Assembly (NCBI RefSeq): GCF_030646925.1
Contig: NZ_JAUSKL010000014.1
Span: 1-57,238, forward strand
Source of the DNA: Candidatus Binatus sp.
GTDB taxonomy: Bacteria; Desulfobacterota; Binatia; Binatales; Binataceae
Direction of reading: 5' to 3'
DNA length: 57,238 bases
Shown here: in pieces, positions 29,123-52,045 of the stretch
Numbering within the stretch: position 1 is the first letter of the stretch
How the letters are laid out: each line of letters opens with the position of its first letter
Program-made: the position numbers and the translations under genes
Notes under the pieces: generated by a model
The model's database searches: none
What the model was told of the DNA's origin: nothing
What the model saw: only the letters and a program-made list of their open reading frames with translations

Positions 29123-29135
29123 GGAGGGGACAGAT

Positions 29136-31512: not shown

Positions 31513-31923
31513 ATGTCGTCCCGCCTGAAACGGCCGGTACGAACTCATCTGGATAAAGCCCGTGCTGCGGCGATCAGCGCGGTCGAAGTTTACAATAGGC
31601 CGGGCTCAGCCTTTCGGACGCCTCACTACCTTGTCCTTATGACGATAGCGTGGACAGCTCTTTTTCATGCGATCTTTTACAAAAACGGACAGAGACCTTG
31701 GCACCGCAAGAAGGCTGGCAAATCTTTCAGATACGTTCAGATCGACGGCGAATTCAAGCACTGGGAACTCGAGGAGTGCAGCAATCAATTCTGGCAAGAT
31801 AAGAATCCACCCGAACGATCGCGGACTGGTTCTATGGCGATCGCACGGGAAGACTGGCCGATCCGTTCGGGCACTTGTGGATCGTATCGACCCATGTCGA
31901 GGACGTGTCGCCCGAAGAGATGA
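31513..31923 (+). CDS. DUF3644-domain protein, truncated and joined to foreign sequence
   Basis: GGGAGG lies about ten bases before ATG 31513. Residues 1 to about 100 match the start of DUF3644 proteins (KARAAAISAVEVYNRPGSAF, YLVLMTIAWTALFHAIFYK, VQIDGEFKHWELEECSNQFW). After DKNPPER the frame runs through DNA that in another frame encodes the end of a VOC domain, so the last ~33 residues are meaningless. Full DUF3644 proteins are over 250 residues. The family is common in accessory and defence-linked DNA. The fragment is probably inactive. Confidence 0.7.
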   Translation: MSSRLKRPVRTHLDKARAAAISAVEVYNRPGSAFRTPHYLVLMTIAWTALFHAIFYKNGQRPWHRKKAGKSFRYVQIDGEFKHWELEECSNQFWQDKNPPERSRTGSMAIAREDWPIRSGTCGSYRPMSRTCRPKR

Positions 31924-33218
31924 AGCGCCGCATGGAAGCGTTCGCACAGGAGCAGGCATCGTCGGCGTCTGCGCCGCAACCGGTGCGCGAACTCGAAACG
32001 CGGCCCGAGGGCTTCCACAGCATCACGCCTTATCTCCAGGTCGAAGGCGCCGGAGGGCTGATCGGGTTTCTCAAGAACGCGTTTGGCGCCGAGGAGATCT
32101 TCCGTGTGCCGCGTGGCGATCAGATCGCGCACGCGCAGCTTCAGATTGAAGGTTCGATGATCGAAGTGGCGGACGCGATCGACAAGTACAAGCCGAATCC
32201 AACGGCGATTTGGCTGTTCGTGCCCGACGCGGACGCGATGTATGCGCGCGCGCTCAAGGCGGGCGCCACATCGCTGCACGAACCGACCGACCAGGATTAC
32301 GGCGATCGCGAGGCGAGCGTCAAAGACCCGTTCGGGAATCATTGGTACATCGCGACCCATCGCAAGGACGCCGAGCCGCTGCCCGAGGGCATGCATAACA
32401 TCACGCCGTATCTGCATCCTATTGGCGCGCCAAAGGTGATCGATTTTCTGAAGAGCGCGTTCGGCGCCGAGGAAGTCTTCCGCGCGCAAGACGACGCCGG
32501 CACGGTGCATCATGCGAAGATTCGGATTGGCGATTCGATTGTTGCGATGGGCGAGGCGCACGGACCGTATCAGCCGATGCCGCCCGCGCTTCATCTGTAT
32601 GTCCCCGACACCGACCTGACCTACCAGCGCGCACTGGACGCCGGCGCTATCTCGATCGATGAGCCGGTCGACCAGGGATACGGCGATCGCTACGCGGGCG
32701 TGAAGGATCCGTTCGGCAACGTATGGTACATCGCAACCCACAAGCAGACCGCCGCAGCGAACGTCAAGATGGAACAAGCCGAGGTCGCGCCTCATCAGCG
32801 CCACGGATCGATCATGCCGTTCATGTATTTCGAAGATGCGGCTGGCGCGGCGGAATTATATAAGAGGATTTTCGGCGCGACGGAGACAGAGCGCATCACA
32901 CAGCCCGACGGCAAGGTCAGTCACGTCCATATCGAGATCGGCGACACGCACCTTATGTTGCGCGACGCGAACACGCCCGACCTCGCGGAGTATCGAGCAA
33001 AAGGTTATGCGACCACTCCGCGCGCGCTCGGCGGGACACCGCTGCATCTCTACGTTTACGTCGCCGATGCGGACGCCGCGTTTAGCCGCGCACTCGCCGA
33101 AGGATCGAAGATTGTCGATACCATGGAGGATAAGGACTGGGGCGATCGATGCGGCGGGGTGCAGGATCGGTTCGGCCACATCTGGTACATCGCAACTCCG
33201 CTCAAGGCCGACGGATAA
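31920..33218 (+). CDS. Three-domain VOC protein with remnant of a fourth
   Basis: The frame is open from about 31813, where it reads ADWFYGDRTGRLADPFGHLW, the end of a VOC domain whose first part is missing; the first ATG is 31920. Three full PhnB-like VOC domains follow (starts near HSITPYLQVEGAGGLIGFLK, NITPYLHPIGAPKVIDFLKS and SIMPFMYFEDAAGAAELYKR), each closing with a DPFGN-WYIATH-type strand. Domains 1 and 2 are most alike, so they arose by tandem duplication. Metal ligands are not the classical set. The gene probably was a four-domain protein, or two genes, before the DUF3644 join removed the 5' end. Function unknown. The next gene encodes a single related domain. Confidence 0.75.
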   Translation: MKRRMEAFAQEQASSASAPQPVRELETRPEGFHSITPYLQVEGAGGLIGFLKNAFGAEEIFRVPRGDQIAHAQLQIEGSMIEVADAIDKYKPNPTAIWLFVPDADAMYARALKAGATSLHEPTDQDYGDREASVKDPFGNHWYIATHRKDAEPLPEGMHNITPYLHPIGAPKVIDFLKSAFGAEEVFRAQDDAGTVHHAKIRIGDSIVAMGEAHGPYQPMPPALHLYVPDTDLTYQRALDAGAISIDEPVDQGYGDRYAGVKDPFGNVWYIATHKQTAAANVKMEQAEVAPHQRHGSIMPFMYFEDAAGAAELYKRIFGATETERITQPDGKVSHVHIEIGDTHLMLRDANTPDLAEYRAKGYATTPRALGGTPLHLYVYVADADAAFSRALAEGSKIVDTMEDKDWGDRCGGVQDRFGHIWYIATPLKADG

Positions 33219-33253
33219 CGAATGAGTCTGAACGGACAACGAAGGAGATAACT

Positions 33254-33727
33254 ATGGCAACCAACGTCAGCCCGATCCCGCCAAACGAAAGCCGCGTGGC
33301 GCCGTATCTCAGCGTCAGTAACGCGGTCGAGATGATCGGCTTCTACAAGCAGGTCTTCGGCGCGACCGAGACTCTTCGACTTGACATGCCCGACGGTCGA
33401 ATCGGTCACGCGCAAATGACGATCGGCACCGGCACCATCATGCTCGCCGACGAATTCCCCGAGATGGGATTCCTCTCGCCGAAATCGATCGGCGACGCGC
33501 GCTCTCCGGTCTCGATTCACGTTTACGTCGAGGACGTCGATGCGGTCTACAAAACTGCGCTCGCGGCAGGCGCGACTTCGCTGCGTGAGCCGGCCAACCA
33601 GTTCTATGGCGACCGCAACGCGCAAGTGAAGGATCCATCGGGACATGTGTGGGACATCTCGACGCACATCGAGGACGTAACGCCCGACGAGATGAAAAAG
33701 CGGATGGCTGCGCTTGGCGACCATTGA
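33254..33727 (+). CDS. PhnB-like VOC protein
   Basis: ATG 33254 follows GAAGGAGATAACT, a strong ribosome site. The 157-aa product is one VOC domain of the PhnB/DUF1428-like type: RVAPYLSVSNAVEMIGFYKQ, VFGATETLRLDMPDGRIGHA, GTIMLADEFPEMGF, IHVYVEDVDAVYKTALAAGA, NQFYGDRNAQVKDPSGHVWD and THIEDVTPDEMKKRMAAL. The last segment matches the VOC tail at the start of the preceding gene and the VOC piece in the chimera at 2223-2400, so this gene shows what an intact member looks like. The enzymatic role is unknown. Confidence 0.87.
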   Translation: MATNVSPIPPNESRVAPYLSVSNAVEMIGFYKQVFGATETLRLDMPDGRIGHAQMTIGTGTIMLADEFPEMGFLSPKSIGDARSPVSIHVYVEDVDAVYKTALAAGATSLREPANQFYGDRNAQVKDPSGHVWDISTHIEDVTPDEMKKRMAALGDH

Positions 33728-36024: not shown

Positions 36025-36819
36025 TCAGATGCCAGGCACGCGTCGAAGTTGGCCATAGCTAACTATGCTTTCGAATTGCTCGCGCAGCGCTTTTGCGAAA
36101 CTCGGAACCCTTATCAGCACCCCGACCTCAATATTTCGTTCTTGGGCGGCCTCTGTGAAATTTGCCGAGGTGATGAAGGCTTCTTCATCATCCACGACCA
36201 CGCACTTCGCATGCAGAGCAGACTTGCCTCCGGCCTCGGCTGAAAGACCGCGCGGATCGTAGAACACTTCCGGCTTTCGACTTCCCGGCCAATCGTTCTC
36301 AAGAAACGTCTTCGCGAAGCCGGCGAGTAGCTCGGCTTCGGATCTTTGATCTTGATAAGTACGTTGAATATTCAGGAACATTCGGGCGCGGAGTCCCGAT
36401 ATCTGATCCATTCGGTCCGCGAGCTCCTTGAAGATCACGTGACCCTGGTAGACCGCGTAGCTGGCGACTAGCACGGCCCTTTGCGCCTTCGCGAACATCC
36501 CACGCACGACTACGCCGGTTTCTCTGGTTTCGGAGCGCATGGTTTCTGGACCGCTCCAGACCAGCTCGATGTGCCTTTCCGGCGAATCGGTCCTTTCCCG
36601 TTCTGCAGTGATTGCGTCAAGCACGTACGCAATATGCGCTGCTCCCATTCCTGATCGAAACAGGTTCCCAAACTCGGCGCTGATTTCCGTGTCGTTCGGT
36701 CCGGCCAGATAGTCGCGCAATGCGATAGGGCTGTATGGTGCTGTCAAACGTCCGCTTCGAAGCGCCTCCGACAGCGCCACTATCGCCGCCGTCGAAAGCT
36801 TAGTCAGGGATGACTTCAC
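36025..36819 (-). CDS. drmC: DrmC-like phospholipase D-family protein (DISARM core)
   Basis: The start is GTG 36819, whose GTGA overlaps the TGA of drmB; a longer open frame to 36942 overlaps drmB and is not needed. The 264-aa product has a C-terminal phospholipase D domain with one HKD signature, LHAKCVVVDDEEAFITSANF near residue 215, and an N-terminal helical region (LTAPYSPIALRDYL). DrmC is the third core gene of DISARM, an anti-phage system described by Ofir and co-workers; its PLD activity is not always essential. Position after drmA and drmB with overlapping codons supports the assignment. Confidence 0.85.
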   Translation of the reverse strand: MKSSLTKLSTAAIVALSEALRSGRLTAPYSPIALRDYLAGPNDTEISAEFGNLFRSGMGAAHIAYVLDAITAERERTDSPERHIELVWSGPETMRSETRETGVVVRGMFAKAQRAVLVASYAVYQGHVIFKELADRMDQISGLRARMFLNIQRTYQDQRSEAELLAGFAKTFLENDWPGSRKPEVFYDPRGLSAEAGGKSALHAKCVVVDDEEAFITSANFTEAAQERNIEVGVLIRVPSFAKALREQFESIVSYGQLRRVPGI

Positions 36820-38645
36820 GCAGTTTCCTCGCGAAAGAACTCGGCTCCCAATCCTTCGACAGTTGGGACAACTAGCGCTCGATCGAGATATTCGTTGCGT
36901 CGTTCGCAGGAGGTTTCGGCGATTAGCAGACATCCGTGACACGCCGCACCGTGCAGGAAGCGTTCTTCTTGCCTATTATCCGGACCGTGCTGAGCGCACA
37001 CGGGATCGTTCGAGCAGAGTCGGCCGAGCTCAAGTGCGGTTCGAAGATGCTCTTCGATTCTCCGCCCCACGGCTGCGAGTCCGCCAAGCGTTCCTTCGGC
37101 ATCGGGGCTCCCTGTATAGAGTAATATTCCGCTGCCAGCGTCGCTCACGTATATGCGTTCGCGAATCGAGCTGGCAGCGTATCCACACTCGAGAGACACG
37201 GCGGTGATCAGTAGATGTGCGAGCGAGTGAAGTAGAACATAAGTGGCACCCAAGAAGACGGCCTGACTCAGTGGATTCTTCCGTTGCCATGCCGTGAATC
37301 CCTGATTCAATTGCGTTTCGCGCTTTTGAACGGGAGCTAACTTTCTCCATTTCGCGATTGCATCTTGCTTCAGAACAATGAAGACACCCTCCCCGCGGTT
37401 CTCCACTGCTGGTAACCACGAAATGTCAGTGGCGAGTTCGGCGCGCCGGACACCGAGATCGAGTTCGCCGTCGATGTCCGTGATGGCGGCTTCAAAGCGT
37501 GTGAATCCCACTTGAGCGACAACTTCGCGCATACGATGGACGAGCACGACGCGCTCCACCTTCGCCATCGGTCCCTTTCGCCGTTCGTCGAGTGACACCC
37601 TCCGTGCGTAGAAGTCTCCTTCCGGCACATCACTGCCGATTTCCTGTTCTGCCGAGAGGAGCGTTTCCAATTCGACCTGTTTGATGCTCTTGGAAGGTTC
37701 GTAAACACCGCCCTTGTGTCGTTTTATTTCCTTCAGCACCGCTTCCTCAGACAGTCCCTCCAAAGCCGCCGCAACTTTCGCCTTCTTGCGTTCGCGCAAG
37801 AGATCGGCAGCATTTTCGACGTAAAGTAGAAAGTCCTCCCAGATCGGGGCGACGGCCTTCCGCACGCGTTCGTCCTGATCCGGAATCGAAATCACGCTCA
37901 GCAGCTGAGGGAAATATGAATTGCTCGCTGATCGAATCAGTAAACGGTTGGCGAGATTTGGACCATCATCGCCACCGCATTTTTCCTGAGAGGCGGGGCC
38001 AAGCCACGGCCTTTGACCCCTGCAGAAGCCAAGTGGCGTCGGACGCTCAGCCGTGCGTTGCGTATGAACAAGCGATCGCTTCTGACCGCATTCGCAGCGA
38101 ATTGAGATATCTCCCAGATCGCCACTCGTCCCGATTTCATCCATCCAAAGTTGCCGTCGGCAGTCGCCTTTCGCTTCGTGGGTGAAGTCATGCCAGTTGA
38201 TGTCGCCGATATGGCCGTTTGAACACGCTTGTACGAATCGAATGGGGATCACTCGATATGTTTTACGATCATTTCCGAGATATTTGCCTGATCTCAGCGC
38301 CTGGCGATGCACCATGGGTCGAGAGCGAAAGCCGTCGCGTCGTATCTCGTCTCCTTGCGCGATGAACCATTCCGGAAACTGCCATGCAGTGACTCCGGTA
38401 CGCGGCGCGCTTGCGTCGCCGGAATCTATCGGCGGCGCAAACAACTTGATCGCGGGAATATTCAGGAGCGTCTGGATCTTGTTCTCAAGCCGTTCCTCAT
38501 GAACCTGATGCCCGGCACCGCGCCAGTGCTCGAGGCCGCCGATGATTACCGCGTGGTCGGGCAAATCGACCATCGCTCCCGGTCCGAAGGTAGTGACGAT
38601 TTGGCTCTGCCTAATCTGGCCGTGAGGTCGAGCTTGAGTCCTCAT
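36816..38645 (-). CDS. drmB: DrmB (DUF1998, DISARM core)
   Basis: The 609-aa protein opens with GQIRQSQIVTTFGPGAMVDL, the typical DrmB start. Middle landmarks are RFVQACSNGHIGDINWHDF and RCECGQKRSL with scattered Cys that can bind zinc. The C-terminal DUF1998 part has YVLLHSLAHLLITAVSLECG, ERIYVSDAGSGILLYTGSPD and the Cys cluster CHGCLLIAETSCE near 580. Length agrees with the family. Its ATG overlaps the drmA stop (ATGA). In DISARM, DrmA and DrmB form a complex that recognises incoming DNA ends. It appears intact. Confidence 0.93.
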   Translation of the reverse strand: MRTQARPHGQIRQSQIVTTFGPGAMVDLPDHAVIIGGLEHWRGAGHQVHEERLENKIQTLLNIPAIKLFAPPIDSGDASAPRTGVTAWQFPEWFIAQGDEIRRDGFRSRPMVHRQALRSGKYLGNDRKTYRVIPIRFVQACSNGHIGDINWHDFTHEAKGDCRRQLWMDEIGTSGDLGDISIRCECGQKRSLVHTQRTAERPTPLGFCRGQRPWLGPASQEKCGGDDGPNLANRLLIRSASNSYFPQLLSVISIPDQDERVRKAVAPIWEDFLLYVENAADLLRERKKAKVAAALEGLSEEAVLKEIKRHKGGVYEPSKSIKQVELETLLSAEQEIGSDVPEGDFYARRVSLDERRKGPMAKVERVVLVHRMREVVAQVGFTRFEAAITDIDGELDLGVRRAELATDISWLPAVENRGEGVFIVLKQDAIAKWRKLAPVQKRETQLNQGFTAWQRKNPLSQAVFLGATYVLLHSLAHLLITAVSLECGYAASSIRERIYVSDAGSGILLYTGSPDAEGTLGGLAAVGRRIEEHLRTALELGRLCSNDPVCAQHGPDNRQEERFLHGAACHGCLLIAETSCERRNEYLDRALVVPTVEGLGAEFFREETA

Positions 38646-41506
38646 ACTTCCTCACCCTCGACATCGATTCCGTCGAGTCTGCGCACCCAGAGATTCACAT
38701 TGGGCTCGACATCACGCATCGATCGCTGCGCCTTGAATTTTCGCGCGCCCGGAGGTTGCCGATCAAGTTCGGGATCGAGGGGATCGAAGAGAAGAGGTGG
38801 GGCGCCTCCAACTTCCTTTTGATATTGCAGTCCGGAGCCGACGCTCTGCTTGGCGTGTGCGATCTTTTCCCACTCATCCAACAAATCGTTTACGCGCCCA
38901 GCGAGCTTGCTACGCAACTCGGTCGTATCGTCTTTGCTGTGTTTTTCGGCGCGCTCAATGATTGTCTTTGAAACCAAGTCCAATCGCGCTCTTTCCTTCA
39001 AGATTGCGATACTATTCTTCGGCGCAGTTAGCGCACCGAGTCCATGGCGCGCAAGGGACACGATCACTGCGGCCAGGCCGCGATCAATAGCGCGCGGTGA
39101 GAACGGCGTTACGCTGGTAGCCTCGACGTTACGATAAAACGACGCGTGATAGGCCTCGAATCGCTCATAGTGTGATCGATCGCGCGGCCGGTGAATATTC
39201 AAGAGCGTAACGATTAGGCCGGGATGGTTGTCGTTGCGCCCAACGCGGCTGGTCGCCTGTATATACTCCGCGGTGGTCTTCGGTTGACCGAGCACTACCA
39301 TCAGACCCAGCCGTGATATATCGAGTCCGACCGAGATCATATTGGTGGCAATCGCAACGTCGACGCGTTCTTTGTCGCGGAAGGCGAGTGCAAGCCTGCG
39401 TTTGGCGTTTGCAACCTTGTCTGTGCTCTCCCGAGAGGTGAGTTCAACTACGTCTTCAGCGATCTTGCGGTCCGCGAATAGTCCTTCCTCTTCTCCTACC
39501 CGCTTACGTGACCCGTAGCTCTGAAGTCGCGAATTGACTTCGTCTTCAATAATTCTGCGGCTACCACCGAGTTCGCGCAGACTTCCGAAATACCCGAGCA
39601 ACGTCATGTACGGATCGGCGGGATTCTCCAAATTGCGATCAGCGCCCTCGGCTGCGTACATTCGCTGAGCCGCGGCCAACAGCGCCAGATATGATCTGAG
39701 CAGGACAACCTTGAGACTTCGGCCCTGTGCTGCAATGCCAGCATAAAGTCGAGGGTTTCGCTCCGAAGCGGGAACTGTGAGCGCAAAGAACGAGTCGCGC
39801 CGGTCGATTCCAGGTGCTGGAAATACCTCGACGCCGGAGCGCGCAAACAACGCTCGCACCTGCGCATCTGCGCGTCGGACAGTCGCAGTCGACGCTACAA
39901 TCTTGGGCCCAATTCTCCTCCCAGAGATCTCGCGCGTGCAGAGTGCGTCCACCGCGGTCTCGTACAAACCCGCCATCGTACCCAACGGACCCGAAATCAA
40001 ATGAAGCTCGTCCTGGATAATCAGATCGGGAGGAAGTAAAGGTTTTTCGAGGGCCGCGCCAACGTTCGGATCGCACGGGCCATAAAACCCTTCCTTGTCG
40101 TAGCGATCCACTTTCCCGAAGAGCGCGCCGGTTTGGCCAACCCAAGGCAGCGCCGCAAATTTATCAACCGTGGCAACGATAAAGCATGGAATCCTTCGAT
40201 AGATCGGCTCATCGACGGCAACGATCGGGAGCGCGCGATCTCCTTTGAATTCGCAGTCGCGATTCACACAGACGATCTTAAGATCGCGCGGCTGATCTTG
40301 GTTGGGCTTTAGGAAAAACGATCTGCGGGTGAACTTCTGTCCACACCAGGGACAATTCTCCAAAGGAATCGGCGATGGCTTGTGATCGTCGTTTTGGAAA
40401 GCGATTGTTCGGGCGCGCGCTGTATTCTGATCAGTGTCGCCCTTACGTCCCATTCGGTTCGGCGTAGCCGCCATCCCGACCCAAAGTCCAATCTCGAACG
40501 GAACAGTTCCTAGCTTGCTGACGTCTTTTTCCCGTTCCAGCTCCAGGGCGCAGATCATTGTTGCCGCTCTTCCAAGTTGCTCGAGCGTGAGCAGGCGGAG
40601 CGTGTAGCGCATCAGAACACTCACGCCTGCGGATGAAATGCCGGGATTTCGGAGCCGTCTGAGCGCGAGCGTGAATGCTGCCAGCCCCAGGCAAGCCTCG
40701 GTCTTGCCACCACCGGTGGGAAAGAACAGCAGGTCGACGAGCTGGCGATCGCTATGGAGCGGATCTGCGATCCCGGGAAGATTCATCAGGATGAAAGCGA
40801 GCTGGAATGGGCGCCATGCCGCGGTTGGCGCGCTGCGATCCCCAGCTTGAATCGCGCGTTGGTGAATCGCCTGCGCGATCGCTCGATTGGCGATTCGGAA
40901 TGCGTCGAGGATCATCGGGTCCTCCAGCGCAGCAATTCCAGCTTCGATCCTGCCTTTGGCGAATTGGGCGCGACCGACTAGGTATTCGGCGACGGTCTTT
41001 CGGCGCCGGTCGGATTGAACCGCAGCGCGCTGCTTCTCGATCCACTGTCCGTATTCAGTTGGTAGTGCCGCCAGTTTCGAACGCATTGTCGAAGCATCAG
41101 ACACGGTACCTAGCGCCTGCATAGAGAGTTCGACGCCCTTTGCCTCCCCTGGTTCGATTTTTTCGACCGCAGCGCAGGGTATCCATTCGGTCCTGACCTC
41201 TCGACAGTCACCGCCGGAATCGGCGGTCGCCGAGGTGGCAACGCCGTGACCGACGGCAAACTCGAAGCAATCGCGGTACTGCAAATCGGCAATCTGTTCG
41301 TCGGTGTCATCAGTCGACGCGACCAAGCCGCGCAGGTTCGGGCGCGGGACGAATGACGACTCGATCGTGAGAATAAGCCGCGCCTGGAAGATGTACGCCT
41401 CGTCCCGAGCGGCGTCAGGCTTCGGCCGGCGATAGTTGACCAGGAACACCGATACCGAACGCGTGCCTGGAGGAACCAGCTCGGGCGGCAACCCTCTGTT
41501 ATCCAC
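38642..41506 (-). CDS. drmA: DrmA helicase (DISARM core), 5' end eroded
   Basis: The 954-aa frame from GTG 41506 is a superfamily-2 helicase of DrmA type: Walker A LLFFPTGGGKTEACLG near residue 265, DEAH-box-like IIQDELHLISGPLG near 499, STATVRR, ATNMISVGLDISRLGLMVVL and motif VI YIQATSRVGRN near 752. A zinc-binding ENCPWCGQKF with a later C-x4-C lies near 390. Codons before the GTG still look like protein (SEGLKLVTSVRNVPP) up to about 41590, where a CAGGGAA repeat begins and an in-frame TAA stands at 41624-41626. No ATG is left, so the natural start has been lost and the product may be short at its N-terminus. Confidence 0.92.
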   Translation of the reverse strand: MDNRGLPPELVPPGTRSVSVFLVNYRRPKPDAARDEAYIFQARLILTIESSFVPRPNLRGLVASTDDTDEQIADLQYRDCFEFAVGHGVATSATADSGGDCREVRTEWIPCAAVEKIEPGEAKGVELSMQALGTVSDASTMRSKLAALPTEYGQWIEKQRAAVQSDRRRKTVAEYLVGRAQFAKGRIEAGIAALEDPMILDAFRIANRAIAQAIHQRAIQAGDRSAPTAAWRPFQLAFILMNLPGIADPLHSDRQLVDLLFFPTGGGKTEACLGLAAFTLALRRLRNPGISSAGVSVLMRYTLRLLTLEQLGRAATMICALELEREKDVSKLGTVPFEIGLWVGMAATPNRMGRKGDTDQNTARARTIAFQNDDHKPSPIPLENCPWCGQKFTRRSFFLKPNQDQPRDLKIVCVNRDCEFKGDRALPIVAVDEPIYRRIPCFIVATVDKFAALPWVGQTGALFGKVDRYDKEGFYGPCDPNVGAALEKPLLPPDLIIQDELHLISGPLGTMAGLYETAVDALCTREISGRRIGPKIVASTATVRRADAQVRALFARSGVEVFPAPGIDRRDSFFALTVPASERNPRLYAGIAAQGRSLKVVLLRSYLALLAAAQRMYAAEGADRNLENPADPYMTLLGYFGSLRELGGSRRIIEDEVNSRLQSYGSRKRVGEEEGLFADRKIAEDVVELTSRESTDKVANAKRRLALAFRDKERVDVAIATNMISVGLDISRLGLMVVLGQPKTTAEYIQATSRVGRNDNHPGLIVTLLNIHRPRDRSHYERFEAYHASFYRNVEATSVTPFSPRAIDRGLAAVIVSLARHGLGALTAPKNSIAILKERARLDLVSKTIIERAEKHSKDDTTELRSKLAGRVNDLLDEWEKIAHAKQSVGSGLQYQKEVGGAPPLLFDPLDPELDRQPPGARKFKAQRSMRDVEPNVNLWVRRLDGIDVEGEEV

Positions 41507-41662: not shown

Positions 41663-41806
41663 TTGCCGACAAATTGCGAAATTGCTCATCGCGCGTCAAT
41701 CGACTAGGTTGGACAAGAAAACGGATTCAGCCAATCTGCACGTTGCATGTGGACCGCAGCCTGAGGGGGTAAAAGGACAATCGACGTCTTTGATCTGGAT
41801 CGCGCA

Positions 41807-44800
41807 TTGGTTCAGGATTACGAACGCTTTGCGCGGTCATTCACCCAAATACGTGCGGCTGACATTCGGGCCCAAGTTGAGGCCATTTACGCTAGTAGAC
41901 GCTTTTGGCCAGAGCCTCTAGTCAGTATCAATCCTAATTTCGAGCGCGACATTGCAATCGACACACTGGTCGCGGACGGCTCTCTGCATCCGAGTACAGG
42001 CCAAGTATTTCGGATTGCTGACCAACCAATCACTCTTTATCGCCACCAGTCGCAGGCGCTCGCGAAGGCATCCGCGCGGCAGAGTTTTGTCGTCACGACT
42101 GGAACTGGATCCGGTAAATCGCTCTGCTTCTTCGTTCCCATTATCGACCTTGCGATACGAGCTAGGCTAGCCGGTGAGGCTCCACGGACGCGGGCGATCG
42201 TGATTTATCCGATGAACGCTCTCGCCAACAGCCAAATAGAAGAGCTGAGGAAGTTCGTCAATCAGTCCGATTTGCCGGAACGGCTTCGGCCAACATTCGA
42301 ACGATATACCGGCCAAGAAGGGGCCGACGAGAGAGAGCGAATTCGAGAACTCTGCCCCGACATTCTATTGACCAACTTCATGATGCTGGAACTGCTGATG
42401 ACGCGGCAGAACAGCCTCGATCAGGCGGTCATCAGCAACGCGAAGGACCTCGACTTTATCGTCCTCGATGAGTTGCATACCTATCGCGGCCGTCAAGGCG
42501 CCGACGTGGCAATGCTGGTTCGGCGGCTTCGGGACCGTCTGTGCCGAGATAGAGTACCGATCTGCATCGGCACATCCGCCACGATGGCAAGCGATGACGC
42601 GACCAACGATCCTGCGGCAGCGGTCGCGATCGTTGCCTCACGCCTGTTCGGAACTCAGATCACCAGCGACGCTGTAATTGGTGAGAGCCTCGAACGAGCG
42701 ACCGATCCCGCGATGAACGTGAAATCGCTCGGGGGTAAGCTCGGCGCCGCGATCGACGACGAGATCCCCGTTTCTCTCTCCGACGCTGAGCTCCGGTCGC
42801 ATCCGCTCGCAGTCTGGATCGAGCTCGAAATTGGGCTCGAAGATGGCCAACGCCTCCGTCGACATCCGCCCATCACCCTAAAAGGCGCAGCGCAGAAACT
42901 GGCCGCCCAGACCGGCCGCGATCCGGAGCGCTGTCAGTCGCAGATTCAGGCGATGCTGATCCTCATGAACAAGCCCGCGAGCGAGCGAGGTGGGACGAGT
43001 GATCGCGCGTTCATGGCCTTCAAACTGCATCAATTCTTTTGCGGTGCCGGTCGCCTCTACTCGACTCTTCGAGAACCCACCCGCCGCCGCGTCACACTCG
43101 ATGGTCAACTTTTTGATCCGGAAGAGAAAGAAACTCGACTCTATCCGACTTTCTTCTGCCGGAACTGCGGGCAAGAGCATCATCCAATCGTTCTGAGCGA
43201 CCAAGACGGGAGACGCCGAGCTCTTCCCAGGCCGATCGACGAACCGCCACTCGATAACGAAGATCGGGCCGAGCAGGCCGGCTATTTGATGCCCGAGCCG
43301 TTGGCAGACACGGAATTCACTTTCGACGGTACTCCTGAGCAATACCCCGATGATTGGATAGACCCGGCTGGCCGTATCAAGAGCAACCTGCGTCCTTTTG
43401 CCCCGCAGCCCGTAGTTATTGATGAGAGTGGTGTAATCGGCATGCGGGGGCGCAAAGCATGGTTCTTACCAGGAAAGTTCCGTTTCTGCCCCGCCTGTAA
43501 GGATCAACCCGCGGGGCAAGCGCGAGAAATCAACAAGTTGGCGGGTCTTTCGGCCGAAGGCCGAAGTTCTGCCACGACGCTCCTGGTTTCAAGTACGCTC
43601 CGCTGGATGAACGCGCCCAGCAGCGGGTTCCGCATCGACAAGCGCAAGGTGCTTGGCTTCACAGACAATCGACAGGATGCCGCACTTCAGGCGGGTCACT
43701 TCAATGATTTTCTATTCGTAGCGCAGTTGCGCGCGGCGATTCTCGCGGCCGTCATCGCTGCAGGGCCTGATGGGCTCGCAGATGACGAATTCGGTCGGAA
43801 GATCCAGGCAGCGCTAGGCTTCACGGCAGCCAATCGATCCCGCCGCAGCGAATGGATGCTTGATCCCGAGATAAAAGGGGCCGGACAAGTCGCCGCAGAA
43901 CGGACACTGTCACGAGTCTTTGCCTATAGGGTCTGGGCCGATCAGCGCCGAGGCTGGCGCTTCACCAATCCCAATCTCGAAGAGTTGGGGTTAGTCCACG
44001 CTGAGTATCTTTCGCTCGACGATTTGGCAGCAGACGACAATGCATTCGTCGAGGCACCGCCGGAGCTTAAGCATGCCGACCCTGCCACGCGCAGACAGGC
44101 TCTCTTCATTCTCCTGGAGACGATGCGCCGTGGACTGGCCGTCACGGCTGATGCTCTTGACCCGACTACGGTCGAGGCCACCGCGAATGCTGCGCGCCAA
44201 AGCTTGCGTGAGCCTTGGTCAATCTCGCATCAGGAAAATCAGCGCAGTGCTTCAGCTCTCATAGTCGACGCCCCGAAAAAAGCTGATGCGGGGCTGCGAG
44301 GTGAGCCTCTGATCCTTCGGGCTGGCCCGCGCAGTAGCCTTGCGCGTCGACTGGGCCACCCAACGCTCTGGAAGAAAAGACTTGATGGTAAGACATACCT
44401 AACTGTCTTGAAGTCTCTACTCGCGGCAGCGGCTGACTACCAGTTAGTCCGCTCAGTCACAACCAGTTTTGATGTCGATGGATGGCGCCTTGCAGCCAAT
44501 GCCATCCGATTGGTGAGTGGCGAGGGACGAAATGATTCGAAAGCGCCCAATCCCTATTTCGTCGATCTATATCGCGCACTAGCTAAGACCCTGTCCGAGG
44601 GCGGGGCGGGCCTGTTCGGACTAGAAAGCCGAGCCCACACAGCCCAGGTCGAGCAGACGCAACGCCAATGGCGCGAATGGCGGTTCCGCTGGGGCGATGA
44701 CGACAAGCTGAAAATAGCTGAGGCTAAGGATGACATGCGCCAGGCTGGCGAGCCCGATGTCTTCCTGCCCGCTCTGTTCTGTTCACCAACGATGGAGTTA

Positions 44801-46396
44801 GGCGTTGATATCTCGGCACTGAACGCGGTTTATCTGCGCAACGTGCCGCCGACCCCCGCCAATTACGCGCAGCGTTCGGGCCGTGCCGGTCGGTCCGGAC
44901 AGGCTGCGCTCGTCATCACATACTGTGCAGCGCAAAGCCCGCATGATCAGTACTACTTTGAGAAACCGGAGCGGATGGTCAATGGATATGTTCGGCTGCC
45001 CGCAATTGAACTTGCCAACCGCGATCTCATTGAAGCTCATCTTCACGCCGTATGGCTGGCCGAGACTGGCAAGGAATTGTCGGCTGACATCCCACATGTC
45101 CTTGATCTCGCAGATGAAGCTTTACCTGTGCAGAAAGATATCACGATGGCACTTGGCAATTCGGAAGTGTCGACGCGCGCCGTTAAGCGAATGGAGCGAA
45201 TCCTCACAAGCATCAGCACCGAGCTGACACCGCAAGCCGCGCCGTGGGCATTAGATCGGGAGGTTCATCAAAACCTGCCCGAAATTCCGCTGCTGCTAGA
45301 AGTCATGCGCAAGAGAGCGAACGAACGTGTGGCAGCCGCGGCCGACCTTCCTGCCGAAGAGAATGCCGAACTGACCACCGGACGCGAGGAATTCAAAACT
45401 GCCCAGTCGGAATGGATGCGTCTCGACGGTGAGCGCATCCGCGTCGAAACGGCGATCCCGATCGAGGAACGCGTTTTGAGCGAGATCCAAGGGGAGCTGC
45501 CCGCTCTCTCATTCTCGAAAACAGAGGCGGAAAGTCCCATTTGCCCAGTATGCGAAGTACCCATCGATCGAGTGTTAGCGGAAGGATGCAAACTATCACA
45601 TAAAATACCGGATATTGCCGCTTGCCAGCGGCGCTGGGCTCAGCGCCAAGCTGATTTTCAACAACAGAGTAAGCGATTGCAGAACCTCGGCCGAGAACGA
45701 ACGCAGCTTATTCAGCAAACGGCGCACGCTAAGCAAAAGTTGGATCCGTTAGCGAACAGTGTCTTGGCCATAGAAAAGGCGCGCGATTTCCGAGGAGCTG
45801 CGTGGTACTCGGCGCGTAGACTCCAGGACGATATCGAACAACTCTCTGATCGGATCAGCGCCCAAGATTCGGCTACCAAAACCCCGCGCGAACTGGCTAC
45901 AAAGATCGAAGCGGAACGAGTCAGGCTTACTGCCTTTCGAGACGAGCAGGCGCGAGCGTTCGGCCGATTGAGTCAGAAATTCGACTCAATTGTTCGACGC
46001 CTGCTCGGTCAAGATGCCAAAGGTAGTATCGTACTCTCCGGCGCTGGCATTGAGCTTTCGATAGACCTTGGAGGAGATCGAGCTACAGCAGCAATTGACT
46101 CGCTGAAGGTTCTGGCCTTCGACCTCGCTGCACTATGCCTCAGCATCGAAGGGGCAACGCGAGTTCCGGCTTTCTTGCTGCACGATAGCCCAAGAGAGGC
46201 CGACCTCGGTCTTAGTATCTATTATGAGTTGTTTCGAATGGTTCGAGAGCTTGAAGGGTCGGCAGAGCACCCGCTGTTTCAATACATCGTGACCACCACG
46301 ACGGAGCCGCCGGATACATTCAAAACTGACCCCCGGCTTCGTCTCGTCATCCGCGGTGCGCCGGCAGAAGAGCGCTTGCTGAGGATGAATCTTTGA
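41807..46396 (+). CDS. DEAD/DEAH helicase joined to the zinc-hook and C-terminal head half of an SMC/Rad50-like ATPase
   Basis: From TTG 41807 the frame gives 1529 aa. Residues about 1-1150 are a YprA/COG1205-type superfamily-2 helicase: TGTGSGKS at 98, LDELHTYRGRQGADV near 221, GTSATMAS near 255, KVLGFTDNRQDAALQAGHF, SPTMELGVDIS and QRSGRAGRSG near 1021. Its expected C-terminal ~500 residues are missing. From about 1152 the chain is coiled coil with a Rad50-like hook CPVCEVPIDRVLAEGC near 1244, more coil, and an ATPase-head end with LKVLAFDLAALCLSIEG, HDSPREAD near 1458 and QYIVTTTTEPP, resembling DUF2326. The N-terminal P-loop half of the SMC is absent. Upstream codons read IDVFDLDRAL after GAGGGGG, but where ATG is expected there is AGG (41774). 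The fusion is either a new protein or a deletion product. Confidence 0.85.
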   Translation: MVQDYERFARSFTQIRAADIRAQVEAIYASRRFWPEPLVSINPNFERDIAIDTLVADGSLHPSTGQVFRIADQPITLYRHQSQALAKASARQSFVVTTGTGSGKSLCFFVPIIDLAIRARLAGEAPRTRAIVIYPMNALANSQIEELRKFVNQSDLPERLRPTFERYTGQEGADERERIRELCPDILLTNFMMLELLMTRQNSLDQAVISNAKDLDFIVLDELHTYRGRQGADVAMLVRRLRDRLCRDRVPICIGTSATMASDDATNDPAAAVAIVASRLFGTQITSDAVIGESLERATDPAMNVKSLGGKLGAAIDDEIPVSLSDAELRSHPLAVWIELEIGLEDGQRLRRHPPITLKGAAQKLAAQTGRDPERCQSQIQAMLILMNKPASERGGTSDRAFMAFKLHQFFCGAGRLYSTLREPTRRRVTLDGQLFDPEEKETRLYPTFFCRNCGQEHHPIVLSDQDGRRRALPRPIDEPPLDNEDRAEQAGYLMPEPLADTEFTFDGTPEQYPDDWIDPAGRIKSNLRPFAPQPVVIDESGVIGMRGRKAWFLPGKFRFCPACKDQPAGQAREINKLAGLSAEGRSSATTLLVSSTLRWMNAPSSGFRIDKRKVLGFTDNRQDAALQAGHFNDFLFVAQLRAAILAAVIAAGPDGLADDEFGRKIQAALGFTAANRSRRSEWMLDPEIKGAGQVAAERTLSRVFAYRVWADQRRGWRFTNPNLEELGLVHAEYLSLDDLAADDNAFVEAPPELKHADPATRRQALFILLETMRRGLAVTADALDPTTVEATANAARQSLREPWSISHQENQRSASALIVDAPKKADAGLRGEPLILRAGPRSSLARRLGHPTLWKKRLDGKTYLTVLKSLLAAAADYQLVRSVTTSFDVDGWRLAANAIRLVSGEGRNDSKAPNPYFVDLYRALAKTLSEGGAGLFGLESRAHTAQVEQTQRQWREWRFRWGDDDKLKIAEAKDDMRQAGEPDVFLPALFCSPTMELGVDISALNAVYLRNVPPTPANYAQRSGRAGRSGQAALVITYCAAQSPHDQYYFEKPERMVNGYVRLPAIELANRDLIEAHLHAVWLAETGKELSADIPHVLDLADEALPVQKDITMALGNSEVSTRAVKRMERILTSISTELTPQAAPWALDREVHQNLPEIPLLLEVMRKRANERVAAAADLPAEENAELTTGREEFKTAQSEWMRLDGERIRVETAIPIEERVLSEIQGELPALSFSKTEAESPICPVCEVPIDRVLAEGCKLSHKIPDIAACQRRWAQRQADFQQQSKRLQNLGRERTQLIQQTAHAKQKLDPLANSVLAIEKARDFRGAAWYSARRLQDDIEQLSDRISAQDSATKTPRELATKIEAERVRLTAFRDEQARAFGRLSQKFDSIVRRLLGQDAKGSIVLSGAGIELSIDLGGDRATAAIDSLKVLAFDLAALCLSIEGATRVPAFLLHDSPREADLGLSIYYELFRMVRELEGSAEHPLFQYIVTTTTEPPDTFKTDPRLRLVIRGAPAEERLLRMNL

Positions 46397-46397
46397 C

Positions 46398-47204
46398 ATG
46401 ATCCAACCTGAAGACCCGCCCGGCTTCATTGTGCGCACGGAGGCGCAGAAGGCCGCATCGAACAATGGCTATCGGTTGATTCGTGGAATCGAAGGCGGCT
46501 GGTTATGCTTTGCTTCAACGACAGCAAAGGGCCAGGTCTGGATCGCCAGCGTTTCTAAGAGCGGGCCCTGGCTATTGTCCATCGGTCGTCCTGAAGTCGG
46601 TGCCGAAATCGAGCTTCCATCGACATCAGCAACTATAGGACCCGGTGCGGTCACCTTCGTTTTCGACAATCTCGAAGGGCTCTACGGTGCTCTGGACCGA
46701 GTATATCGCCTCGGCCTAAGCCTTCCCGACGTACCCTTCGCGAACTTTCGTGCTGCTGTGCAGAACCTCTCGCGCGCCACCGAAATCGAGCGGCTCGTCA
46801 TACAGCGCATAGGACAGGACGTGTTTCGCCAAGCACTAATGAACTACTGGGGCGGGCGATGTCCCCTCTCAGGAATCACCGACACGGCATTGCTCCGCGC
46901 GTCACACATCGTCCCGTGGGCTGAGTGTGCAACAGACGAACAACGACTGGATGTTCATAACGGACTTCTGCTCTCCGCACTTTGGGATTCCGCATTCGAT
47001 GCCGGATTAATCACATTCGAGGACGACGGCTTAGTGCTTTTTTCTCCTGAGCTGAGCGCAGAAGCATGCTCCGGGCTAGGCTTGGCCAAGGAGCCCAAGC
47101 TTAGTGGTCTCACGTCCGCTCACAGGTTAAACTTGAAATGGCATCGCGCCCGTTATGCGCCGAGAGACGGCTGGATGACGCCAACGGGCGCGACAGGTAT
47201 GTAG
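46398..47204 (+). CDS. HNH endonuclease (HNH_2 type)
   Basis: The ATG lies one base after the stop codon of the helicase-SMC gene, so the two are co-translated. The 268-aa product has an N-terminal alpha/beta part of unknown role (residues 1-120) and then TEIERLVIQRIGQDVFRQAL, CPLSGI, LRASHIVPWAECATDEQRLD and VHNGLLLSALWDSAFDAGLI, the core of the HNH_2 nucleases. The catalytic His is in SHIVPW. Family members cut double-stranded DNA and are often effectors of restriction and defence loci. Here it may be the effector arm paired with the helicase/ATPase. It appears intact. Confidence 0.88.
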   Translation: MIQPEDPPGFIVRTEAQKAASNNGYRLIRGIEGGWLCFASTTAKGQVWIASVSKSGPWLLSIGRPEVGAEIELPSTSATIGPGAVTFVFDNLEGLYGALDRVYRLGLSLPDVPFANFRAAVQNLSRATEIERLVIQRIGQDVFRQALMNYWGGRCPLSGITDTALLRASHIVPWAECATDEQRLDVHNGLLLSALWDSAFDAGLITFEDDGLVLFSPELSAEACSGLGLAKEPKLSGLTSAHRLNLKWHRARYAPRDGWMTPTGATGM

Positions 47205-47699: not shown

Positions 47700-47970
47700 G
47701 TTCTCTAAGTCTCCTAAGCCTTAACGGCTGGCGGGATGTTTGCTCTGTTGCGAGCGTGAAGCGAGTGATTCTTGGCACTCTCTAACGTCATTCGTTCAGA
47801 AAGTAAGAAGCCGGCTATTGGCGCGGATCGAGGGCCACGATCGGGGCGATTGGAAGGCGAATGGGGGTGCAGACCAAGACCTAGTCCGTCCGCCAAGTTA
47901 AAATCGCGCACGAACCGCCAATTGTGCGGACAATAGCTAACTCCATGGAGAACCCACCGATTGGCTGCCC

Positions 47971-48138
47971 ATGGCCAAAAGCGCAGTCAATTTGAATTCT
48001 TCGGCGACTTTCGGCACTGCGCCGCAAATTTGCCGAACCTGCGTGGGTGTTTGTCGCTCGAATCCTCCGCGCAAGGACTGGCTCCCTGCCGCGAAACGAG
48101 CAATGTGTGTCTCTGTCCGCTCGGGAGGTGGACAGAGC
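47971..48138 (+). pseudogene. Leader ORF of module copy 2, fused in frame to DUF2924
   Basis: This is the counterpart of the 50-aa ORF at 28970. It begins ATGGCCAAAAGC, has a one-base gain and a one-base loss that cancel, and ends CVSVR as in copy 1. The TAA stop of copy 1 is TCG here, so the frame continues GGGQS directly into DUF2924, giving a possible 216-aa product. The middle portion carries four Cys (ICRTCVGVC region) not found in copy 1, owing to the shifted codons. Confidence 0.45.
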
Positions 48139-48621
48139 ATGAACCACGGATTTTATGGCGGCGAAACCGCAAAGATCTCAAGCGAGATCGACGCCCTGTT
48201 CGATCTGAGGGTAAGCGAACTGAAAGTAAGATGGCGATCCGTATACGGCACGGAACCGCCGCCGCGCAGCAGCAAGAAACTGCTCATCTCGGCAATTGCT
48301 TATCGTATGCAGGAGCGAGCGTTCGGTGGGCTCAAGCCGTCGGTACGCCGCTTGCTCGAGCGCGTGTCCGAGGAAGAAGCCGGCCGCCGGATTTTACGTA
48401 CCCGGCCTGTTACAAGCACCTCAGCCGGCATGGTTCTGATCCGCGATTGGCAGGGCAAAAGCCACCACGTCACCGTGCTCGAACGAGGTGTTCTATACCG
48501 CAAAAAGAATTACCGTTCGCTCTCACAAGTTGCTCGGGTCATTACCGGCTGCCGATGGTCAGGACCTCTCTTCTTTGGTTTGAAAGGTCGGGCGAAGGAG
48601 GGGGCTAGTGGAACCCGCTAA
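48139..48621 (+). CDS. DUF2924-domain protein (copy 2)
   Basis: The 160-aa product is closely similar to that at 29136, with the same ends (MN-G-GGETA at the start; FFGL-GR-KEG near the end). GGGAGGTGG lies about seven bases before ATG 48139, although the frame is also open upstream to 47971. It overlaps the recombinase start by 14 bases. Most changes between the copies fall in the linker around residue 95-105 (EEEAGRRILRTRPVTS here), while the C-terminal VTVLERGVLYRKKNYRSLS and WSGPLFFGL are kept. Confidence 0.88.
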   Translation: MNHGFYGGETAKISSEIDALFDLRVSELKVRWRSVYGTEPPPRSSKKLLISAIAYRMQERAFGGLKPSVRRLLERVSEEEAGRRILRTRPVTSTSAGMVLIRDWQGKSHHVTVLERGVLYRKKNYRSLSQVARVITGCRWSGPLFFGLKGRAKEGASGTR

Positions 48622-50302
48622 ATCTTCGGTTCAACGTTGCGCGGTGTATACCCGAAAATCTTCAGAGGAAGGCCTCGAGCAGGATTTCAATTCGCTGCAG
48701 GCTCAGCGTGAAGCCTGCGAAGCGTTCATCAAGAGCCAGGCAGGTGAGGGTTGGCGTCTGGTCAAGACCGCGTACGATGACGGTGGCATTTCCGGCGGCA
48801 CTATGGAGCGCCCCGCTTTGCAGCGCCTTCTGTCCGATATCGACGAAGGCCGGATCGATGTCGTGGTGGTTTACAAGGTCGACCGGCTAACCCGTTCGCT
48901 GGCGGACTTCGCCAAAATCGTGGAGATCTTTGATGCTCACCACGTTTCGTTCGTCTCGATCACTCAGCAATTCAATACCACCACTTCGATGGGCCGTCTC
49001 ACACTGAATGTCCTGCTCTCGTTTGCGCAATTTGAGCGAGAGGTAACCGGGGAGCGGATCCGCGACAAGATTGCTGCCTCCAAGAAGAAGGGCATGTGGA
49101 TGGGGGGCCTCTGCTGCCTCGGTTACGACATCCGCGATCGCCGGCTGGTGGTCAATCAGGAAGAATCGAAGCTCGTTAAGCAGATCTATAAACGATACCT
49201 CGAACTCGGCAGCGTCCGTCTTCTGAAACAAGATCTGGATCGGCGCGGGATCGTTTCGAAGATTCGCGTATCGAAGAACGGCACACGCTCGGGAGGCCGA
49301 TCTTTTTCTCGCGGCGCCCTTTACGAGTTGCTCGCGAACCCGATCTACGTCGGTGAGATCCGTCACAAGGAGATTCGTCATCCAGGGCAGCACGAAGCCA
49401 TCGTGGATCGACAAGTCTGGGAAGAGGTTCAGAGACAGCTTCGCGACCAAGCTGCTCGAGACGGTACTCCAAAAATCAAAGCCGCTACTAACGTTTTGGC
49501 CGGCAAGTTGTTCGATGAGAACGGCGATCCGCTGTACTCGACGGCGGCGAAGGGCCGCCATGGTGGTCGTTACCGGTATTATGTTTCCAGGGAGCTGATA
49601 AGAAGCGGCGGCTCCTCGGTAGGAAAGGAGAAGGGTTGGCGATTGGCTGCACCGGAGCTGGAGCAAAGTGTTGTTGTGTCGGTTCAGAAGATCCTTAGCG
49701 ACCACGCAGGCATTGCGACCACGTTGCAGGAAGCCGGCGTATCGTCAGCCGAGATTAATTCAGTTCTCAAAGCGGACGAAGCCAAGAGCGCGTTGCTGGA
49801 ATCAGAGCCTCAAGCGGCGCCCACCATCGTTGAACTCGTTAGACGAGTCGATCTCAGAAAGGATGGCATGGAAATATCGATGAATCTCGAATCGCTACTC
49901 CCGCGCGATTCGGGCATCCGGCAATCGTCTTCGTTGACGTTAACTCGATTCGTACCTCTGGAAATGAAACGACGCGGAGTCGCGATGCGGCTGGTGATCG
50001 GCGGCGGTGTTTCGACCCGCAAGACCGATCCGACTCTTCTGAAAGCGGTCGCGCGAGGACGCAAGTGGTTCAACGAACTCGTCTCGGGTCGCGCAGTATT
50101 CACGCGGGAGATCGCAGAGCGAGAAGGGGTAAACGAACGTTTTGTAAGGCGTTTAATGCACCTTGCGTTCCTTTCACCTGCGATTGTTCAGGCGATCGCC
50201 GAGGGTCGTCATCCGGCAGATCTCACTTGTGAGGCACTTAGCCGCGGCATCGACATTCCCGTCGAGTGGACCAAGCAACTTGCGGCGCTCGGCTTCGATT
50301 GA
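48608..50302 (+). CDS. Large serine recombinase (copy 2)
   Basis: The start codon is GTG (48608) where copy 1 has ATG, behind GAAGGAGGGGG. The 564-aa protein keeps the catalytic Ser in YTRKSSEEGLEQDFNSLQAQ, the GERIRDKIAASKKKG helix and the LYELLANPIYVGEIRHKEI DNA-binding segment. It has no stop or frameshift, so both copies may be active. Differences from copy 1 cluster in the C-terminal third (residues about 360-460), the part expected to contact attachment sites, so the two may recognise different sites. Confidence 0.92.
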   Translation: MEPAKSSVQRCAVYTRKSSEEGLEQDFNSLQAQREACEAFIKSQAGEGWRLVKTAYDDGGISGGTMERPALQRLLSDIDEGRIDVVVVYKVDRLTRSLADFAKIVEIFDAHHVSFVSITQQFNTTTSMGRLTLNVLLSFAQFEREVTGERIRDKIAASKKKGMWMGGLCCLGYDIRDRRLVVNQEESKLVKQIYKRYLELGSVRLLKQDLDRRGIVSKIRVSKNGTRSGGRSFSRGALYELLANPIYVGEIRHKEIRHPGQHEAIVDRQVWEEVQRQLRDQAARDGTPKIKAATNVLAGKLFDENGDPLYSTAAKGRHGGRYRYYVSRELIRSGGSSVGKEKGWRLAAPELEQSVVVSVQKILSDHAGIATTLQEAGVSSAEINSVLKADEAKSALLESEPQAAPTIVELVRRVDLRKDGMEISMNLESLLPRDSGIRQSSSLTLTRFVPLEMKRRGVAMRLVIGGGVSTRKTDPTLLKAVARGRKWFNELVSGRAVFTREIAEREGVNERFVRRLMHLAFLSPAIVQAIAEGRHPADLTCEALSRGIDIPVEWTKQLAALGFD

Positions 50303-50416
50303 GCCTTCAGGAGGCTTACTGGGTCACAAATTTTGATAGGCTACTGGCCTAGGATTCCTCTTCCTCCATTTTTCGCGCCATAGGATCTTGTCGCAATTGG
50401 CATGCGAATATTGAGC

Positions 50417-50434
50417 ACCACTCAATTGAGTGGT
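50417..50434. promoter_or_regulatory. Perfect 18-bp palindrome, probable operator of the lexA-like gene
   Basis: ACCACTCAATTGAGTGGT is its own reverse complement over all 18 bases and ends 18 bases before the ATG of the LexA-like gene at 50453. Position and symmetry fit binding of a dimeric repressor over the promoter or leader. It does not match the E. coli (CTGT-N8-ACAG) or Gram-positive (GAAC-N4-GTTC) SOS boxes. Autoregulation is an inference. Confidence 0.65.
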
Positions 50435-50452
50435 ATTACTACTCGACCACTG

Positions 50453-52045
50453 ATGGAGGCGCTCACGACGATTCAGAGAAGGGTGTTGGAAGCCCTCCGC
50501 CGACACGCGGACCAAGGCGACCCCGCGCCAACCTATCGCGAGCTTTGCGCTGAGTTTAAGTGGGCGTCGACCGGCACGGTCCGCGACCATCTGCGTGCCC
50601 TGGTACGCAAGGGATACCTGGAACTTACTGGCAGACATCGTGAACTTCGGTTGCGGGAAGAGCGTCCGCCGATTGCTCGCGTGCCACTCGTGGGTCGCGT
50701 GGTCCCGGGTGTACCAGTGATCTCTGACGAGCACACTGGCCAACGCATTCCGGTTCCCTTGGCTTGGACGAGAAAAGGGACGTTTTTCGCCCTCCGTGTT
50801 GCCGGTGATAGCATGCGGGATGCGGGAATATTCGAGGGCGATCAAGTCGTCGTGCGCCAGCAATCAGTCGCGGTCGATGGTGACGTGGTCATCGCCACTC
50901 TTGAGAGCGAGACGACCATCAAACGATTGCGGATTAATAAGAGCCGCGTGATGCTCGTCGCTGAGAATCCTCAATATCGATCCATCGAAGTGAGAACCCC
51001 AGAGGCGACTATCCAAGGTGTGGTCGTCGGACTGATGCGTGCGTACCACGAGAGCGGCGCAACCGCCCATCCATCGACGCGTCGAACTGCGCGAAGAATC
51101 GCCCCTGGGAGGTGCCTAAGCGTGAGCCAGAAAAAACGCAGGGAGCATCTCGGCAAAAGCCATCTGTTTGGCGGGAGCAGGACGACCGCGAAACTTGATG
51201 TGGTCGCAGAATACCTAGCTGCTTATACGACAGCGCTGAAGAATACGCCCTTTCTGAAGGGTTACATCGATGCATTCGCGGGCACAGGCTACCGCGAGGC
51301 TAGGCCTGAGAGCGAGACCGGGTTGTCGTCACAATCGTTGCTGTTTCCCGATCTCGCGGAGCCGGAACCGCAGGATTTGCTGGAAGGCTCAGCCGTCCGA
51401 GCGCTGAAAACAGATCCCCGATTCGATAGCTACGTTTTTATCGAGCGGAGTCCGGCACGGTGCAAGCAGCTTGAAGACCTCAGGTCGCAGTTCCCACACC
51501 TTGCAAGTGCAATCCAGATCCGCGAGGGCGAAGCTAACCTGGAAATCCAGGCGCTATGCAGCAAGAACTGGAGCTCGCATCGCGCCGTTCTTTTCCTCGA
51601 TCCGTACGGGATGCAGGTGGAGTGGAAGACGATTGATGCGATCGCCAAAACGAAAGCTATCGACCTCTGGGTGCTGTTCCCGCTTGGCATCGGCGTGAAC
51701 CGCCTGCTGACGAAGTCGGGCGGCATACCGGAATCATGGAAAAGACGCCTCGATCTGTTGCTTGGGACTGAGGACTGGTACGAGGAGTTCTACCGGGTTG
51801 AGAGCACGCCCACGCTTTTTGGGAAACCCGAGGAGCAAGTTGTAAAGGCGACGATAGACACGGTCGGGCAATACTTCATTAGGCGCCTCAAGACGGTATT
51901 CGCCGGCGTTGCAGACGAGCCAAAGGTCTTGCTGAATTCAGCGAACTGCCCTCTCTACCTCCTATGTTTCGCAGCAAGTAATTCAAATGGCGCAAACATT
52001 GCTCTGAAGATCGCAAATCATTTGTTGAAGAAGGTGGTGCTGTAA
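50453..52045 (+). CDS. LexA-like repressor read through into TcmP
   Basis: The LexA-like start is taken as ATG 50453 ([15 protein letters not shown]); an upstream ATG at 50402 would run through the palindrome. Residues 1-68 form the winged HTH ([29 protein letters not shown]). Residues about 74-205 form the S24 peptidase domain with Ser in [14 protein letters not shown] and Lys in ETTIKRLRI. The usual Ala-Gly cleavage site is Pro-Gly here ([11 protein letters not shown]). No stop follows GLMRAY; the frame passes through about 20 Arg-rich residues into a TcmP domain (residue 224 onward). The result is a 530-aa open frame, but TcmP also has its own start (see 51122). Confidence 0.75.
51122..52045 (+). 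CDS. tcmP: Three-Cys-motif partner protein TcmP
   Basis: GTG 51122 has GGGAGGTG about eight bases upstream, so TcmP can be made alone (307 aa). It opens [20 protein letters not shown] and has [16 protein letters not shown], which resembles an AdoMet-methyltransferase motif [16 protein letters not shown], and [20 protein letters not shown] with [15 protein letters not shown]. TcmP proteins occur beside Gp37/Gp68-type proteins that hold a three-cysteine motif, and that is exactly the next gene, whose ATG overlaps this stop (TAATG). The biochemical role of the pair is not established. Confidence 0.82.

Follow-up and report, generated by a model that had tools for sequence, protein, structure and literature searches.

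The fused reading frame and its surroundings

The stretch of DNA analysed here, referred to as the window, comprises 57,238 nucleotides of a Candidatus Binatus contig. It carries a reading frame in which a large part of a helicase runs directly into part of an SMC ATPase, with a gene for an HNH nuclease behind it and the DISARM genes drmC, drmB and drmA upstream on the opposite strand:

36025..36942, minus strand: drmC of DISARM, a PLD nuclease gene (Pfam and PADLOC)
36816..38645, minus strand: drmB of DISARM (PADLOC)
38642..41506, minus strand: drmA of DISARM, N-terminally truncated; the alignment to DrmA of Nostoc C057 extends up to 41596
41760..41806, plus strand: 5' end of the helicase gene, with ATC at 41780 where three annotated relatives start with GTG
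41807-46396, plus strand: fused helicase-SMC frame, 1529 amino acids, a single open frame
41807..45263, plus strand: helicase part of the fused frame, residues 1-1152, YprA family (DruE/ARMADA type I-like), 94% identical in nucleotides to the helicase gene of G014, a genome of the same family
45264..45268, plus strand: helicase/SMC join; helicase identity ends at 45263 and SMC homology to L056, a locus from a Terriglobia bin, starts at 45267
45269..46393, plus strand: SMC part of the fused frame, the C-terminal 375 residues of an LmuB-like SMC ATPase, with hook, coil and Walker B region
46398-47204, plus strand: HNH nuclease gene, 268 amino acids, apparently whole (HNH_2, 7.9e-12, Pfam)

A preliminary description of this DNA had reported a helicase joined in frame to the second half of a zinc-hook SMC protein, with an HNH gene one base behind, and this is what the window contains. 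The CPVC hook is found at residue 1246 and the HDSPREAD of the Walker B region at residue 1459; one base separates the stop of the fused frame from the ATG of the HNH gene. The position proposed for the join, about 45,260, was right within a few bases.

The helicase part keeps its motor motifs, GTGSGK at residue 99 and DELH at residue 221, and Pfam recognises a DEAD domain at 79-263 (7e-25) and Helicase_C at 989-1031 (8.9e-7). PADLOC places this YprA-family helicase nearest to Druantia: the DruE1 model matches the fused frame at 1.8e-78, its best stretch lying within the helicase part, and DrmA matches at 1.7e-16. The C-terminal part of the frame is matched by PDC-M68B (1.4e-11) and LmuB (3.3e-7), while DUF2326 is seen there only below the Pfam cut-off (residues 1415-1499, E 0.011, 15.9 bits vs 28.7).

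Both partners of the fusion are incomplete. From the helicase, ~545-565 C-terminal residues are missing, including the stretch bearing the zinc-binding domain; the helicase frame of G014 has 1788 residues, with an MrfA zinc-binding domain at 1564-1664. On the other side, the fusion begins at about residue 285 of the SMC protein, so that its first ~284 residues are absent, and no Walker A is present. The SMC gene nearest to that of the window is that of L056 (72% identical in protein; the HNH proteins of the two are 66% identical), and conserved alignment columns place the likely Walker A of the family at about residues 72-78 of the L056 protein. With this region missing, no SMC ATP site is possible from the fused protein alone.

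At the 5' end, identity with G014 begins at 41761, a GAGGGGG stretch precedes the ATC at 41780, and the nearest common start codon for the fused frame is the TTG at 41807. The ATC is either an unusual start or a lost one; it replaces the GTG of the relatives in both the window and G014 (positions 1468-1470 of its locus, L013).

The adjoining drmA, drmB and drmC resemble DISARM, with two differences. Residues 170-1147 of the 1148 of Nostoc C057 DrmA align to the window's drmA, leaving ~169 N-terminal residues absent, and the class 1 genes of Nostoc C057, its drmD (partial) and its methyltransferase, gave no tblastn match in the window at E<=0.01.

Several other features of the window deserve mention. 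An acyl-CoA dehydrogenase (15090-16556) is fused in frame, at its last codon, to the C-terminal part of an aldo/keto reductase, the join lying at ~15318-15330. At 16613-17661, two SDR pieces whose matches in relatives lie at different places abut at ~17103, apparently out of frame. At 50402-52045, a LexA-like protein of ~209 residues is followed by ~330 more residues with no Pfam match, which may be another join. A DUF2924 gene with a large serine recombinase occurs in two direct copies (28876-31301 and 47877-50304), 84% identical and 19 kb apart; they flank the stretch with the drm, helicase and HNH genes, and recombination between them could remove it. Finally, a run of glyoxalase-like domains at 31836-33663 contains a 56-base repeat five times, at a spacing of ~380-470 bases.

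The intact operon in relatives

Using the SMC half of the fusion as query, we scanned GTDB contigs and viral contigs. The window was compared with 88 other loci (86 after removing the duplicates L061 and L122): the best 80 of 199 GTDB-contig loci, two viral loci, G014 and five plasmid loci. G014 has separate genes for the helicase, an SNF2 helicase, a methyltransferase of the Eco57I type, a complete SMC and HNH, in this order. The first four occur in the same order on plasmids of Agrobacterium deltaense, Mesorhizobium AR07 and AR02, Paraburkholderia dioscoreae and Rhizobium leguminosarum, with HNH following in four of the five and absent in P. dioscoreae. The helicase and SMC genes of the relatives lie ~10 kb apart. 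An AAA ATPase gene (PADLOC PDC-S06, 8e-71) stands directly after HNH in G014 (L013, 16667-18955).

In 68 of the 88 loci, the best 80 of 199 from GTDB contigs included, the sequence reaches 9 kb or more upstream of the SMC half; 53 of these 68 have their genes in the order helicase, SNF2, methyltransferase, SMC. The 15 exceptions are of several kinds: one locus with a deletion (L086, discussed below); five loci of type I restriction systems (L107, L113, L123, L125 and L128); six in which SNF2, methyltransferase and SMC follow one another as usual but the helicase C-terminus is absent from the available stretch (L071, L089, L093, L101, L110 and L132); L109, which has just methyltransferase and SMC; L129, whose SMC is partial; and L137, from a viral contig, whose neighbours are weak or partial. 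In L071 (Chelatococcus sambhunathii, 1-2200), a frame of 609 residues that contains an HIFP motif and may be DUF262/GmrSD-like occupies the position of the helicase end before SNF2, and no HNH follows the SMC.

According to the available text of Bell et al. 2025 (PMC12458937), ARMADA type I usually has the order YprA helicase, BrxHII-like SNF2, PglX-like methyltransferase. The intact relatives share this order, with a YprA-type helicase (DruE closest in PADLOC), an SNF2 protein (BrxHII/DrmD/DpdE-like) and a PglX/DrmMI-like methyltransferase; they differ in adding an LmuC-like methyltransferase tail, an LmuB-like SMC and often HNH. The window itself differs further by having neither the SNF2 nor the methyltransferase gene. 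The main text of the ARMADA paper, as available, contains no mention of SMC, Rad50, DUF2326 or Lamassu, and HNH only in its reference list. The intact ancestor would appear to join ARMADA type I to an LmuC-LmuB module like that of Lamassu, and the combination appears to be new.

This changes the picture of the ancestor given earlier, a helicase-SMC-HNH system beside DISARM. Separate helicase, full-length SMC and HNH genes, expected then to occur next to drmABC, do exist, but within the available flanks a match to drmA, drmB or drmC was found in 0 of the 88 other loci (counting the best 80 of 199 from GTDB contigs); the ancestor was rather an ARMADA type I operon with SMC and HNH. On a plasmid of Nocardioides JS614, DISARM drmA and drmB stand upstream of an SMC-less ARMADA type I operon (L159, 3658-26049), so DISARM and ARMADA type I adjoin elsewhere too.

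The presence of HNH suggests a relation to the nuclease of the helicase itself. The helicase C-terminus is complete in 52 loci, and we scored the Vsr motif DG.PH there. It is intact in nine loci, all without HNH, and degenerate in 43; HNH is present in 42 of these 43, the remaining locus being uninformative as it ends 292 bp after the SMC. Among 10 further SMC-less plasmid loci, three are intact without HNH, five degenerate with HNH, one degenerate without it (Kozakia, with an IS21 after the methyltransferase) and one uninformative. HNH thus seems to accompany helicases with a degenerate Vsr nuclease of their own. The Fisher test on the first set gives 3e-10; on the helicase tree (60 rows; a quick tree with long branches) the degenerate state forms a single clade and takes one change, so that this P-value overstates the association, which may reflect one event. 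We therefore reject the idea that HNH replaced the Vsr nuclease many times over: one replacement may account for the pattern. For the SMC tree, in turn (80 rows; a quick tree with several long branches), the presence of HNH needs eight changes, seven of them forced by starred branches, which suggests that the SMC module has passed from one helicase lineage to another.

Origin of the fused frame

We think it likely that the fused frame is the scar of a recent internal deletion in a five-gene defence operon, which left a probably dead remnant. The ancestral order would have been YprA-type helicase, SNF2 helicase, PglX/Eco57I-type methyltransferase with an LmuC-like end, LmuB-like SMC and HNH. 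A single deletion of ~9.7-10 kb, a size derived from three intact loci, would have cut ~545-565 residues off the end of the helicase and ~284 off the start of the SMC, and would have eliminated the SNF2 and methyltransferase genes entirely, the frame being kept by chance; a random deletion keeps the frame one time in three. The product of the remnant would retain the helicase motor, the hook, the coil and the C-terminal SMC lobe. It is most likely inactive, because the C-terminal, zinc-binding part of the helicase, the SMC Walker A and the methyltransferase of the operon are all gone. We infer that the join is present in the organism's DNA, that one event made it and that the fusion product is dead.

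In favour of a deletion, helicase and SMC are separate in G014, with SNF2 and methyltransferase between them. An in-frame deletion had already been proposed in the preliminary description, for helicase and SMC genes lying side by side: a deletion joining the two stands, but their adjacency does not, given the two genes between them in relatives. A comparable case is found in Bradyrhizobium japonicum SZCCT0231 (L086), where helicase residue ~598 is joined out of frame to SMC residue 37; SNF2 and methyltransferase are missing there as well, and HNH is kept. This deletion is of the same kind but arose independently; events like it seem to happen repeatedly and need not preserve the frame.

A second explanation, which we consider unlikely, is that a draft or metagenome assembly put together by mistake two real pieces of operon, perhaps of two strains. 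Divergence from G014 does shift across the join, from 94% nucleotide identity in the helicase to 41-44% amino acid identity in the SMC and 75% nucleotide identity on the HNH side (46270-47194). The contig is a mosaic, too: it has the further joins at ~15318-15330 and ~17103, a drmA without its N-terminus and the ATC in place of the GTG start, and the other joins make an assembly fault conceivable. Against it, the missing middle of the operon was not found elsewhere in the organism's own assembly, 98% complete by the search tool's figure, when searched by DNA. The protein search of that assembly returned no SNF2 of the operon family, only other SNF2s at 32-38% identity, and no match for the methyltransferase; the methyltransferase query does find a match in G014, at 62%, which serves as the control. 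Moreover, the window contains no N, and the join is sharp to ~4 bp and in frame, the helicase and SMC coding sequences having no common stretch beyond a few bases there. Misassembly by k-mers normally needs ~20 or more shared bases, so an artefact at this place would require chimeric molecules. The Bradyrhizobium locus also speaks against an artefact, as it suggests that such deletions do happen. For the deletion, the unequal divergence on either side of the join means that the ancestor was a mosaic and not simply the operon of G014.

The third explanation, a working new protein whose helicase motor drives a hook-bearing SMC arm and, with HNH, makes a compact nuclease machine, strikes us as very improbable. 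All 1529 codons are open, the motor motifs are kept, and HNH is intact at its usual close spacing. Between the helicase part and G014, dN is 0.022 and dS 0.206 (dN/dS 0.10). Relaxed selection on the window's helicase part, looked for by polarising the amino acid changes against G014, was not found: 15 changes fall on the window side and 17 on the G014 side, with 18 unassignable. The low dN/dS and the even distribution of changes fit a working fusion; a recent scar would give the same. On the other hand, the SMC has no Walker A part, the relatives' GTG start is not kept and the fusion turned up nowhere else in the collections searched. It did not appear in the 41 genomes of the order, in the 148 genomes of the class or among the best 80 of 199 SMC loci in GTDB contigs, and none of 236 matching plasmid records covers it to 80% in one place. 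In viral contigs, neither the protein search (two loci) nor the exact junction pattern revealed it; one of the two loci, L137, has a separate SMC, and the other, L136, begins inside the SMC at a contig edge and cannot tell. The new architecture first suggested for this locus, a helicase lending its motor to an SMC arm, therefore finds no support, as these searches gave no second example of the fusion, which lacks both Walker A and the helicase C-terminus. The fused protein is more likely a scar than a new defence machine, which is useful to know before any characterisation.

An LmuC-like tail and an LmuB-like SMC

In the intact relatives, the SMC is LmuB-like and the methyltransferase before it ends in a domain of ~170 residues; the ARMADA methyltransferases tested from loci without an SMC showed no such domain. 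In a structure comparison with VIA-align, the closest folds to this tail domain are the small chains of Lamassu complexes (LmuC). The VIA-align matches name complexes and not subunits: we took chains of ~165-171 residues as LmuC and of ~560-650 residues as LmuB by their length and by the available text of a review on Lamassu (LmuA-LmuC-LmuB; PMC10586767). By sequence, the tail domain has no Pfam match (four examples) and no PDB match; the PADLOC LmuC models match none of 55 tail domains, one of which matched PDC-S65 at 0.011. The SMC profile likewise has no convincing sequence match in the PDB, the best being SMC3 at 0.007.

The intact relatives resemble Lamassu in carrying an LmuB-like SMC and differ from it in that the LmuC-like part is not a separate protein: it forms the C-terminal domain of a methyltransferase or of HsdS. 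The latter arrangement, the tail domain and SMC pair on HsdS, is that of the five type I restriction loci (L107, L113, L123, L125 and L128). As in type I restriction-modification, they have HsdR, HsdM, a PDC-S02-like gene and HsdS (PADLOC for L113 only); unlike it, their HsdS has an extra LmuC-like C-terminal domain, and the same kind of LmuB-like SMC gene comes next. The link between tail and SMC need not be exclusive: two other SMC queries matched Priestia records (two and one, at 22-26% identity) that the tail query missed, which counts against an exclusive link.

On balance, we lean towards the view that Lamassu LmuC also exists as a portable C-terminal tail on DNA-recognition subunits, with LmuB as the next gene, that it has been grafted on ARMADA type I methyltransferases and on the HsdS of type I restriction systems, and that the window is the deletion relic of one such hybrid. 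A search through titles and abstract openings found no literature report of an LmuC tail on methyltransferases or HsdS. In the intact operon, the methyltransferase would mark self and find sites, and its LmuC-like tail would hold an LmuB dimer that senses DNA ends or unusual structures; movement along DNA would fall to the helicases, and cutting to either HNH or the Vsr domain of the helicase.

If this is true, a structure-sensing SMC would be steered by an enzyme that reads sequence and methylation: a Lamassu-type sensor would be covalently tied to the site-recognition subunit of ARMADA and of type I restriction systems. Such a module would link two questions that have been studied separately, how Lamassu discriminates self from foreign DNA and how the nuclease of ARMADA is controlled.
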